NCBI GenBank assembly: GCA_022560555.1
Contig: JADFSZ010000029.1
Coordinates: forward strand, 1-12,890
From: JADFSZ01 sp022560555 [NCBI: PVC group bacterium]
Lineage (GTDB): Bacteria; GCA-001730085; JADFSZ01
Length of the DNA stretch: 12,890 nucleotides
Direction of reading: 5' to 3'
Below, piece after piece: positions 75 to 3,636 of this stretch. Numbering within the stretch: position 1 is the first letter of the stretch; each line of letters begins with the position of its first letter. The notes below the pieces were generated by a model. The model searched no databases, was not told where the DNA came from, and saw only the letters and a list, made by a program, of their open reading frames with translations. The position numbers were made by a program, and so were the translations under genes.

Positions 75-860
75 CCTGCCGTGGCCGGTCAATTTTATTC
101 TTCGGACAAAAACGAGCTTTCCCGGAACCTCAAAGAGTTTTTAGGTAAAATAGAAGGGCAAAAAAATGTCTTTGCCGTCATGGTTCCGCATGCCGGATAT
201 GTCTATTCGGGCTCTGTCGCGGGAGAAGTGTTTTCAAAAATCACGATCCCGGACACTGTTCTTCTTTTGGGGCCGAATCATACAGGGATGGGTGTTCCCC
301 TCTCGATTATGGCCGAAGGATCGTGGGAAACGCCTCTCGGAACGGTGGATATTGATACAGATTTAGCTCAAGAGCTGCTCAGGAATTCCGAGGTGTTAGA
401 ATCCGACCACGATGCGCATAGACGTGAACATTCGCTGGAAGTTGAAATCCCGTTCCTTCAAATGCTTAAAAGTTCTTTTCGGATTATTCCTATCGTTATT
501 GGGACACAAAAAGAAGATTTGCTCAGAACATTGGGTGCGGAAATAGCGAGAAACCTCAAAGGAAAAAATGTTCTGATCGTCATTAGCTCAGACATGACAC
601 ATTACGAAACACATGACGCGGCTCAAAAAAAAGATGCCTTCGCCATTCGAGCCATTGAAGAACTAGATGAAGGCGCTTTGTCAAAAGCCGTGAGCACACA
701 TCAGATTAGCATGTGCGGATATGCCCCCGCGTATACAGCCCTGGTGGCCGTAAAAAAACTCGGCGCGACCGAGGGTAAACTAATTCGCTACAAAACCAGC
801 GGTGAGGTTTCAGGTGATTATGATAAAGTTGTGGGATATGCCGGGATGGTGATCACATGA
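63..860 (+). CDS. amrB: MEMO1-family protein (AmmeMemoRadiSam system protein B)
   Basis: This is a full-length member of the MEMO1 family, which shares the fold of extradiol dioxygenases. The family opening (M-x-R-K-PAVAGQFY) is present, followed by VPHAGYVYSG, GPNHTG, HRREHSLEVEIPFLQ, SSDMTHYE and MCGYAPAYTA. Counting from the start at 63, the residues matching the putative metal site of human MEMO1 are His43, Asp177, His180 and Cys218. Human MEMO1 has been linked to iron or copper binding; the bacterial role is not settled, although the gene is often found with AMMECR1 and radical SAM partners. Two in-frame ATGs exist, at 51 and 63, inside a 12-base near-perfect duplication. I chose 63 because it gives the usual family N-terminus and lies one base after the upstream stop; the start at 51 (269 residues) is possible. 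Neither has a strong ribosome binding site. Its end overlaps the next gene by ATGA, suggesting coupled translation. Confidence 0.9.
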   Translation: MYRKPAVAGQFYSSDKNELSRNLKEFLGKIEGQKNVFAVMVPHAGYVYSGSVAGEVFSKITIPDTVLLLGPNHTGMGVPLSIMAEGSWETPLGTVDIDTDLAQELLRNSEVLESDHDAHRREHSLEVEIPFLQMLKSSFRIIPIVIGTQKEDLLRTLGAEIARNLKGKNVLIVISSDMTHYETHDAAQKKDAFAIRAIEELDEGALSKAVSTHQISMCGYAPAYTALVAVKKLGATEGKLIRYKTSGEVSGDYDKVVGYAGMVIT

Positions 861-1291
861 GTGTGCACACCAAAAACAAAACAGAGATCGACCTCACAAA
901 GTTCCGGTGTGTGAAATGCGGCAATTGCTGCCGTCTGGCCTGGTCTTCCGATAAGCTGCGCTTCTCGAAATCCAGGCACAAGATATTTTGGGGTTCCAGG
1001 TATGGGGAGCCCGGATGTGTTTATGTTACACGTCGGGAAATTCCTGAAATCGCGAAATTTTTAAAATTGAAAGTGAATGATTTTGTGGAACGTTTTACGC
1101 GTTTTGCGCCGAAGCCTTACTTGAGTCTCATCGAAAAGAAAGATAAATCCTGTGTTTTCTTAAAAGACAATCGATGCCAAATCTACAAAGTCCGTCCGGG
1201 TCAGTGCCGGAACTATCCGTTTAATTGGTCGAGGGAAGAAACCCTCATGACGTGTGAGGGTGTTAAAAAATATTGTTTGAACGATACGTAA
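857..1291 (+). CDS. CxxCxxCC cluster protein, YkgJ family
   Basis: The 144-residue product has the signature of the YkgJ / UPF0153 family of putative zinc- or iron-cluster proteins: C18-x2-C21-x2-C24-C25 near the N-terminus, then Cys54, Cys99, Cys107 and Cys117 in the C-terminal half (CVFLKDNRCQIYKVRPGQCRNYPF is split here as CVFLKDNRCQIY then VRPGQCRNYPF), and Cys133 and Cys140 near the end. The motif 'C-x-I-Y-x-x-R-P-x-x-C-R-x-Y-P-F' is the family's second hallmark. No signal peptide or membrane segment is seen, so it is probably cytoplasmic. The molecular function is not established for most of the family. Its ATG overlaps the MEMO gene stop (ATGA, 857-860), so the two are probably co-translated. 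Family assignment is firm; metal type and role are unknown. Confidence 0.88.
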   Translation: MSVHTKNKTEIDLTKFRCVKCGNCCRLAWSSDKLRFSKSRHKIFWGSRYGEPGCVYVTRREIPEIAKFLKLKVNDFVERFTRFAPKPYLSLIEKKDKSCVFLKDNRCQIYKVRPGQCRNYPFNWSREETLMTCEGVKKYCLNDT

Positions 1292-1710: not shown

Positions 1711-2238
1711 ATGAGTCATTATTTGAGAATTTATCCTGATCCTGTACTGCGAAAAAAAGCCGCGAATATTGATGATTTTTCCGAGAATTTGACAGTTCTT
1801 GTCAGTGACATGAGACGGATCTTAGCTGAGGTAGGAGGGGTTGGGCTTGCCGCTCCTCAGATAGGGGTTTCCAAACGTGTTATCCTTGTTCGAATGAATC
1901 CGATGGGACGTGTTGAGGACGAAGATGTGCGCGTGTTTATCAATCCTGAAATCATGGATGCAACTGGCAGTCGAATCGGGGAAGAAGGATGTTTGTCCAT
2001 CCCGGATGTATTGGGAGAGGTTGAGAGAAGCGCTCAAGTAAAGATTCGGGCCAAAGATCTTTTGGGAAAACATCTGGATTTTACCGCTCAAGATCTTGTC
2101 AGTGTGATTTTTCAGCATGAGATCGATCATTTGGACGGGATATTGTTTACCGACCGTATGAGTGCCGCAAAAAAGATTACGATATCCAGCCAGTTAAAGC
2201 AGTTGAAAAAGAAGTATCAGAAGGACCGTAAATCGTAA
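1711..2238 (+). CDS. def: Peptide deformylase
   Basis: This enzyme removes the formyl group from the N-terminal methionine of nascent proteins at the ribosome, using a catalytic metal (usually Fe2+). All three family motifs are intact in the 175-residue product: GVGLAAPQ (residues 43-50), EGCLS (92-96, metal ligand Cys94) and HEIDH (136-140, metal ligands His136 and His140 with catalytic Glu137). The C-terminus is Lys-rich (QLKQLKKKYQKDRKS), a basic tail that could contact the ribosome; that is inference. Length and N-terminus (LRIYPDPVLRKKA) are typical. There is no good Shine-Dalgarno before ATG 1711, only GGGTAATAAG, so translation may depend on the upstream gene. The stop codon falls inside a heptamer tandem repeat. 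The usual partner fmt follows only after an unusual 460-base gap. Confidence 0.97.
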   Translation: MSHYLRIYPDPVLRKKAANIDDFSENLTVLVSDMRRILAEVGGVGLAAPQIGVSKRVILVRMNPMGRVEDEDVRVFINPEIMDATGSRIGEEGCLSIPDVLGEVERSAQVKIRAKDLLGKHLDFTAQDLVSVIFQHEIDHLDGILFTDRMSAAKKITISSQLKQLKKKYQKDRKS

Positions 2239-2247
2239 ATCGTAAAT
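2227..2247 (+). repeat. Three tandem copies of CGTAAAT across the def stop
   Basis: CGTAAAT occurs at 2227-2233, 2234-2240 and 2241-2247 with no mismatches. The def stop codon (TAA, 2236-2238) lies in the second copy, so the last codons of def are written by the repeat. Such a short tract could be a slippage product or the scar of an insertion. Confidence 0.85.
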
Positions 2248-2266: not shown

Positions 2267-2405
2267 TTTAATCGAATAATTTGTGGGCAGTGACCTATCG
2301 ATTCAGCCATTTTTTTCGCTTACAGTGGGCCATCGCTTGGTCGAGTTTAACCCGAAACTTGGAACTTTATTAGCTTGTGCATGATTTTCGAGGGGCGAAG
2401 ACCAT

Positions 2406-2446
2406 CGGAAATTCAGGCTTCAGGGTCCGCAACGCCTGAGTTTCCG
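2406..2446 (+). repeat. 13-pair inverted repeat
   Basis: CGGAAATTCAGGC (2406-2418) is complementary to GCCTGAGTTTCCG (2434-2446) over all 13 positions if one G-U pair is allowed, with a 15-base loop. No T-run follows, so it is not a terminator. Confidence 0.75.
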
Positions 2447-2461
2447 TACAGCAAGCTGTAC
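2446..2461 (+). repeat. Small perfect inverted repeat
   Basis: GTACAG, a CAAG loop, then CTGTAC. It abuts the preceding stem, so the two hairpins could stack. It is followed by AAAAATC, not by a T-run. Confidence 0.65.
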
Positions 2462-2506
2462 AAAAATCAGGCACGAGCTTATTGGGCTATATTTCGGGAT
2501 GAACTC

Positions 2507-2535
2507 GCCCTCAGGCAATAAATTGCCTAGAGGGC
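2507..2535 (+). repeat. 13-pair inverted repeat with tiny loop
   Basis: GCCCTCAGGCAAT (2507-2519) faces ATTGCCT-A-GAGGGC (2522-2535), giving 13 pairs interrupted only by bulged A2529, around an AA centre (a real loop would open a few A-T pairs). It is followed by TCAAACAC, so it is not a rho-independent terminator. Confidence 0.75.
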
Positions 2536-2544
2536 TCAAACACA

Positions 2545-2588
2545 AGCGACCATCGGAATTTTTCTGAACTCTCGGTCGCTCATGAGCG
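2545..2588 (+). repeat. Inverted repeat overlapping a 12-base palindrome
   Basis: AGCGACC (2545-2551) pairs with GGTCGCT (2574-2580) around a 22-base loop. The right arm overlaps the perfect palindrome CGCTCATGAGCG (2577-2588), so two mutually exclusive pairings exist. Confidence 0.6.
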
Positions 2589-2684
2589 CCCAAGTTCGCT
2601 CAAAAAAGTCTAAATCGATTTCTTAGATTATTCACACATCGTTTGGACAATACATTTAAGTCTTTACGCTATACGCTTGTTAAA

Positions 2685-2689
2685 AGGAG
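2685..2689 (+). promoter_or_regulatory. Ribosome binding site that sets the fmt TTG start
   Basis: AGGAG (within AAAAGGAG) ends eight bases before TTG 2698. The in-frame TTG at 2677 lies upstream of this site and has no Shine-Dalgarno, so 2698 is the better start. Confidence 0.75.
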
Positions 2690-2697
2690 TTTTTGTT

Positions 2698-3636
2698 TTG
2701 AGTCTTCGTGTCATATTTATGGGCACTCCGGAATTTTCTCTTAGCTCCTTAGAGGCTCTTCACAATCATTCGGCCGTGGAACTCCTTTTGGTTGTCACCA
2801 GGCCGGATGCTCCGCAAGGGCGCGGCCTCAAACTTGTAGAATCGCCCGTGAAACACTTAGCCGAAAATCTTCGAATTCCGGTGTCGACCCCGTCCAAGAT
2901 CAATGATCCGGAATTTGTGAAAAGCCTCCAAGATCTCAAACCGGATTTGATTTTAACAGTCGCGTTTGGTCTTTTTCTAGGGAGCGCGATTCTGAAGATT
3001 CCCCAATCGGGATGCCTCAATATTCACGCGTCCATATTGCCGAAGTATCGGGGCGCGTCTCCTATTCAGCGGGCCATTATCAACGGAGAATCTGAAACAG
3101 GGCTTACGGTTTTTCGCATTGTCAAGGAAATGGACGCGGGAGATATCCTGATGCAGGAAAAACTTAGTATCTCGGCCGATGAAACGGCCGGAGAGCTTCA
3201 TGACCGACTGGGGCGCCTCGCCTCCGTTGTCACTCAAAAGACCATTGATGCCGTTCTTAGCGGCAAAGAAACGTATACCCCCCAAGCTCATGAAAAGGCC
3301 ACATTTGCTCCCAAACTTAAAAAAGAGGATGGGCATATCAACTGGGACCAAGAGGCCAAAGACGTATTTAACCAGATCCGCGGCGTAACACCGTGGCCGG
3401 GAGCTTACGGCTCTTATCAAGGAGCCCGATTAAAGTTTCATCGGACGCGAGTTCTGGAGGCCGACCAAACATTCCGGGCAGGCACAATCATAAAAGCCGA
3501 TGATGCGGGAATCTGCGTGGGGTGCCGGAAGGGTCAAATCGTTATTGATGAGCTTCAGATGGCCGGGGGGCGTTTACTGAGGGCTCAGGAATTTTTGTGT
3601 GGACACAACATCAAACCCGGGGACATCATTCAATAA
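2698..3636 (+). CDS. fmt: Methionyl-tRNA formyltransferase
   Basis: Transfers a formyl group from 10-formyltetrahydrofolate to initiator Met-tRNA. From TTG 2698 the product has 312 residues, the usual size. It opens MSLRVIFMGTPEFS, the family N-terminus. The formyltransferase domain (about 1-190) holds the folate site and catalytic triad: Asn108 and His110 in LNIHASILPKYRGASP and Asp146 in EMDAGDIL, plus the tRNA-contacting loop RPDAPQGRGLKL (about 35-46). The C-terminal oligonucleotide-binding-like domain begins near residue 205, with VFNQIRGVTPWPGAY typical of it. A longer reading from TTG 2677 would add residues absent from the family. It works with def, but here stands behind a long gap and may have its own promoter. 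A weak 7-pair hairpin follows the stop, without a T-run. Confidence 0.97.
   Translation: MSLRVIFMGTPEFSLSSLEALHNHSAVELLLVVTRPDAPQGRGLKLVESPVKHLAENLRIPVSTPSKINDPEFVKSLQDLKPDLILTVAFGLFLGSAILKIPQSGCLNIHASILPKYRGASPIQRAIINGESETGLTVFRIVKEMDAGDILMQEKLSISADETAGELHDRLGRLASVVTQKTIDAVLSGKETYTPQAHEKATFAPKLKKEDGHINWDQEAKDVFNQIRGVTPWPGAYGSYQGARLKFHRTRVLEADQTFRAGTIIKADDAGICVGCRKGQIVIDELQMAGGRLLRAQEFLCGHNIKPGDIIQ

Follow-up and report, generated by a model that had tools for sequence, protein, structure and literature searches.

Organization and Predicted Fold of the def-fmt Interval

The window (the whole 12,890-nucleotide stretch of contig JADFSZ010000029.1 analyzed here) carries def and fmt in the same orientation, separated by 438 bases that contain no ORF of 60 aa or longer. 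The features of the locus are listed in Table 1. The original prediction had described a nested multibranch structure at 2353-2598 in this interval, to be read as a noncoding RNA, a structured leader of fmt or a repeat element. In the shuffled-control check (200 shuffles per strand), the plus strand of 2353-2598 folded at -94.9 kcal/mol against a shuffle mean of -65.8 kcal/mol and the minus strand at -95.0 kcal/mol against -65.1 kcal/mol, and none of the 200 shuffles was as low for either strand. The structure is therefore as unusually strong as predicted, ∼29 kcal/mol under the shuffle mean on either strand (z about -6.5). Such near-equal strength on both strands is no less compatible with palindromic DNA than with an RNA specific to one strand. 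The predicted nesting held in part: the helix 2372-2380/2471-2479 belongs to the minimum-energy fold of both strands, whereas the outermost closing helix 2353-2362/2590-2598 is present in the minus-strand fold and gives way in the plus-strand fold to pairing of 2353-2357 with a stretch near 2492.

Table 1. Features of the window around the def-fmt interval.
Feature	Position	Strand	Evidence and remarks
CxxCxxCC-domain protein, host gene of copy 3	857-1291	+	PF03692, 45.3 bits (cut-off 23)
Repeat copy 3, in frame inside ORF 857-1291	936-1016	+	R1 match, 52.5 bits
def, peptide deformylase	1711-2238	+	PF01327 and NCBIfam peptide deformylase; left neighbor
GTAAATN heptamer array, variable seventh base, just past def	2228-2247	+	Second dispersed repeat of the interval
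Repeat copy 1: hairpin ∼2379-2418, tail ∼2342-2378	2342-2420	-	R1 model match, 74.5 bits; partial DNA matches on other contigs
Repeat copy 2: hairpin 2434-2472, tail 2473-2505	2432-2508	+	R1 match, 79.2 bits; 89% DNA match on contig C176
Further hairpins beside the inverted pair, stems GCCCTC...GAGGGC and GCGACC...GGTCGC	2509-2598		Folds of both strands
fmt, methionyl-tRNA formyltransferase	2677-3636	+	TIGR00460, 299.1 bits (cut-off 201.5); right neighbor

A search of 2200-2760 gave no terminator-like site, in agreement with the earlier view that the hairpins are not terminators. Rfam gave no match in the window at the gathering threshold and none in 2200-2720 up to E = 5, so that no known family is recognized, as had been stated, and a dedicated noncoding RNA gene gains no support from this source. 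Across nine other loci, Rfam returned two tRNAs.

The predicted boundaries were replaced, since 2342-2420 (minus strand) and 2432-2508 (plus strand) are two copies of one repeat. They form an inverted pair with the hairpins facing each other, and their tails start with complementary stretches, which accounts for the second closing helix (2372-2380/2471-2479) of the original prediction. Taken singly, the copies differ in fold strength. The hairpin of copy 2 (2434-2472, plus strand) reached a DNA fold z of -5.93 and that of copy 3 (938-978, plus strand) a z of -3.87; the hairpin of copy 1, folded as 2380-2420 on the minus strand, two bases short of its foot, gave z = -0.56, no better than shuffles, and is degenerate and weak alone. 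The multibranch shape is thus made of the two inverted copies and the further hairpins at 2509-2598. The latter (from ∼2510 on) were not recognized by the covariance model of the repeat (R1) even with filters off, and the own-genome DNA search with the interval matched only the stretch that precedes them. The GTAAATN array at the left end of the interval is dispersed as well: its pattern has 45 matches in the genome with at most one mismatch, whereas the reversed pattern, used as a control, has 4. On contig C42, a GTAAATN array occurs together with a palindromic repeat copy.

A Dispersed Palindromic Repeat with a Covarying Hairpin

Searching the 222-contig genome with the interval gave seven further matches on six other contigs. 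A core-motif pattern built from the own-genome matches, and independent of the covariance model, occurred at 25 places, compared with 2 for the reversed pattern, and 20 of the 25 were judged by eye to be members. For the alignment, 18 copies were chosen by eye from the 25, leaving out five non-members and two partial members. The repeat unit is ∼80 bp long and consists of an imperfect hairpin of ∼40 bases and a conserved tail of ∼35 bases. The aligned copies share the hairpin GCCTGA...TCAKGC, whose upper stem varies greatly, followed by a tail that reads roughly CACGAGCTTATTGGGTTCCAGGTTCGGGATGAA. Among the best 150 of 542 candidates, the covariance model found at least 43 matches with E ≤ 1e-4, spread over 21 contigs, and when opposite-strand readings were merged, 44 model matches corresponded to at least 37 distinct hairpins. 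On 7 of the 21 contigs that carry copies, a copy lies no more than 250 bp from a contig end (6.7% expected, P = 3e-4), which suggests that further copies are collapsed at contig ends and uncounted. Because of this excess, and because 150 of the 542 candidates were scored, the true copy number is probably higher than the count.

Arrays of copies are present on C38, C152, C176, and C98. No clear target duplication was identified at the copies. Two copies, on C46 (L093) and C29 (L089), have similar flanks past the unit (GAGCCTGCTGGAGCGAG-like); these shared flanks suggest that the two may be parts of a larger composite repeat.

In the 18-copy alignment, two-sided changes were seen at 12 of the 18 stem pairs, and the score for covariation was 0.376, compared with 0.119 for shuffled alignments and at most 0.076 when one arm was slid. 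An alignment of 44 rows gave 15 of 18 pairs and a score of 0.410, with the rows fitted to the model and seven hairpins counted twice, once on each strand. A C-T mismatch low in the stem and a bulged base recur among the copies. Judged from the aligned copies, the paired changes show that the palindrome has been maintained. Covariation by itself is no proof of RNA function or of selection, since a DNA hairpin used for transposition, or template switching within the palindrome, could also match the two arms.

Neighbors of the Copies and the def-fmt Gap in Other Genomes

The genes adjoining the other copies include leuS and tmk (C101), purQ (C98), a gene for a LacI-type regulator (C180), apt (C47), and the genes for methionyl aminopeptidase and S13 (C42), and have nothing obvious in common. 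By mechanical ORF calls, copies on C101, C180, C216, C98, and C152 start no more than 25 bp from the end of the preceding ORF. Such positions would suit copies that are kept as transcript ends or message stabilizers, as some REPs are, a role that is compatible with our preferred explanation of a dispersed repeat. We consider it improbable given that the ORF calls are mechanical and that the def-fmt interval holds no terminator-like site. Near an end of the C98 contig, an ORF (L079:1612-2166) starts as PanC but leaves that family after 58 residues, probably at a chimeric join.

The region upstream of fmt was then compared among genomes by reading fmt with its upstream flank at 29 best-scoring loci of other genomes. 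In 15 of the 29, def lies directly upstream of fmt, and the gap is -7 to 72 bp in all 15; by the same measure the gap in the window is 463 bp. In the other genome of the same phylum in the collection searched (L151) the gap is about 0 bp. No def was found upstream at the remaining 14 loci, among them L146 with only ∼10 bp of upstream sequence. The short gaps in 15 of 15 cases indicate that the def-fmt interval of the window is an added one. Together with the copies elsewhere in the genome, they bear out one part of the original prediction, that a repeat element has landed between two normally adjacent genes. Another part, a structured leader that controls fmt, was rejected on the gap comparison. 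As for a cis-regulatory RNA leader or small RNA gene of the def-fmt locus more generally, a strong fold does lie directly upstream of fmt, but no comparable gap exists in the compared genomes with def upstream, the same element adjoins many unrelated genes and sits inside a coding gene, the opposite strand folds equally strongly, and Rfam has no match; we regard an RNA of this kind as very unlikely. A second Fmt-like protein is encoded on contig C11 (28-945), with 35% identity to Fmt of the window; it is either a paralogue or from a contaminating contig.

A Copy in Frame in a CxxCxxCC Gene

Copy 3 lies within the coding sequence of a CxxCxxCC-domain protein, where it encodes approximately residues 27-52 (LAWSSDKLRFSKSRHKIFWGSRYGEP) as an in-frame insertion of ∼26 residues. 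The Pfam match of the protein spans 111 residues for 78 profile positions. To place the insertion, 23 homologues were aligned, of which L112, which is without the motif, was dropped; L123 stood outside the alignment. The insertion is missing from all 22 readable homologues, and the distance from the CC pair to the next conserved glycine is 27 residues here vs. at most 5 in those 22. With the best homologues, the match begins just after the insertion. Residues 26-54 also match a repeat copy on C170, where stop codons break that frame, and the insertion peptide is thus the repeat read through. Structure prediction for the protein alone was poor (mean pLDDT 38.9) and was set aside. This is the one clear intragenic copy among the loci; other overlaps with ORFs, in dcd (C166) and rpsM (C42), precede the family match of the ORF. 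An assembly artefact, either of this copy or of the arrays, is conceivable in a genome fragmented into 222 contigs with a chimera-like end on C98, but the copy is exactly in frame between the two halves of a conserved domain, which would be rare in a chance join, and we give this explanation very little weight.

Distribution Outside the Genome

No DNA match of the interval was found in 58 other genomes, and the covariance model gave no match in the other genome that represents the phylum in the collection searched, with 150 of 585 candidates scored. A less sensitive scan of 289 other genomes, with 16 candidates scored per genome and stricter filters (under these settings the own genome gave 17 matches vs. 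43, E ≤ 1e-4), returned a single match in G153 (E 1.4e-4); this hairpin lacks the conserved tail, appears to be a chance match and was rejected as a family member. One exact core pattern had two matches, both in Sphingobacteriaceae, among 84,980 genomes of named species, a collection that may omit the own genome; by our own estimate two matches are probably close to chance expectation. The same exact pattern had no match in viral contigs. In the literature covered by a limited search, which included REPs in connection with candidate phyla or metagenome-assembled genomes, the repeat family is not described.

Candidate Enzymes for Movement of the Repeat

The genome encodes a REP-associated tyrosine transposase (RAYT) on C102 (55-1005, L043; NF047646, 85.5 bits, cut-off 80), whose C-terminal part gives a weak DnaA-like match. 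Two more distant Y1 transposase genes score under the NF047646 cut-off. Around the three Y1 genes, the parts of the contigs examined gave no significant match to the repeat; the C102 contig starts 54 bases upstream of the RAYT gene, which leaves very little sequence to inspect on that side. The RAYT flank contains no inverted repeat and matches one other place, C29:8605-8662, which we take to be an IS3-like remnant. The RAYT on C102 is the first candidate for a mover of the repeat, although we hold this role to be less likely than not; movement by this enzyme is an inference.

A full-length integron integrase is encoded on C166 (L042:7481-8479; 469.8 bits, cut-off 265). The contig ends ∼225 bases upstream of the integrase start codon and does not include a cassette array; a GTTAGAC upstream of the gene may, we presume, belong to an attI site. 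Integron attC sites have the core motifs RYYYAAC and GTTRRRY; it is their folded shape rather than their sequence that is conserved, and some bases of the stem stay unpaired. The reading of the copies as attC-like recombination sites of this integron thus has a likeness in hairpin shape and bulges and a resident integrase in its favor, but it was rejected on the absent core motif (0/42 copies at the 5′ foot and 0/42 at the 3′ foot), and with copies between housekeeping genes, in short arrays without cassette ORFs or any cassette arrangement, and no model match near the integrase, it is the least credible of the alternatives.

Comparison with Known Repeats and Interpretation

Sections of PMC3733652 describe REP dimers, the GTAG and CGTC superfamilies, and REPs that lie immediately downstream of stop codons or, in several species, within ORFs; RAYTs are described both with REPs at their flanks and without them. 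The repeat reported here resembles REPs and BIMEs as a short palindrome in inverted pairs and clusters, mostly intergenic, often just past a stop codon and occasionally within an ORF, in a genome that encodes a RAYT. It differs in being longer, with a conserved unpaired tail, in the lack of a constant GTAG/CGTC tag at the foot, in copy number (tens rather than hundreds), and in that the search detected no copy next to the gene for the transposase. Near the hairpin foot of 42 copies, GTAG occurred 2 times and CGTC once, and the reverse complements CTAC and GACG 4 and 2 times, respectively. In-frame Rickettsia palindromic elements (RPEs) are described in part of PMC10969869. Likened by description, the repeat shares with them a palindrome that is both intergenic and in frame in a protein gene, with an insert of 20-30 residues; it differs by one clear intragenic copy here vs. 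many in Rickettsia, and by the host lineage.

We concluded that the structure is, with high probability, an inverted pair of copies of a small, non-autonomous, dispersed palindromic repeat that inserted, along with other repeats, between def and fmt, two genes that normally abut. The repeat appears to be a new family among selfish repeats of a known kind, similar to REP/BIME and to the Rickettsia palindromes. Such a repeat would spread as folded single-stranded DNA, with the hairpin kept for that reason, and an enzyme acting in trans would cut and paste it. The surviving copies would then occupy low-harm sites, either intergenic or in a tolerated in-frame loop. Against this explanation stand the lack of copies by the Y1 genes, unlike classical REP-RAYT pairs, the failure to identify a clear target duplication, and the degenerate hairpin of copy 1. 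We also considered, as a rather speculative proposal, a palindromic repeat outside both REP superfamilies that has a single-stranded tail and a covarying hairpin, would be moved in trans by a RAYT/DnaA-like transposase in a sparsely sampled phylum, and may add in-frame protein segments as RPEs do.

With this reading, what had appeared as an RNA-like structure becomes a clear example of an inserted repeat. A repeat family whose hairpin is kept via paired changes is added for a phylum of which the collection searched has just two genomes. That no copies were found next to the RAYT gene is relevant to the question of which enzymes move REP-like repeats, and the CxxCxxCC gene with its in-frame copy offers a case in which the incorporation of selfish DNA into a protein can be tested.
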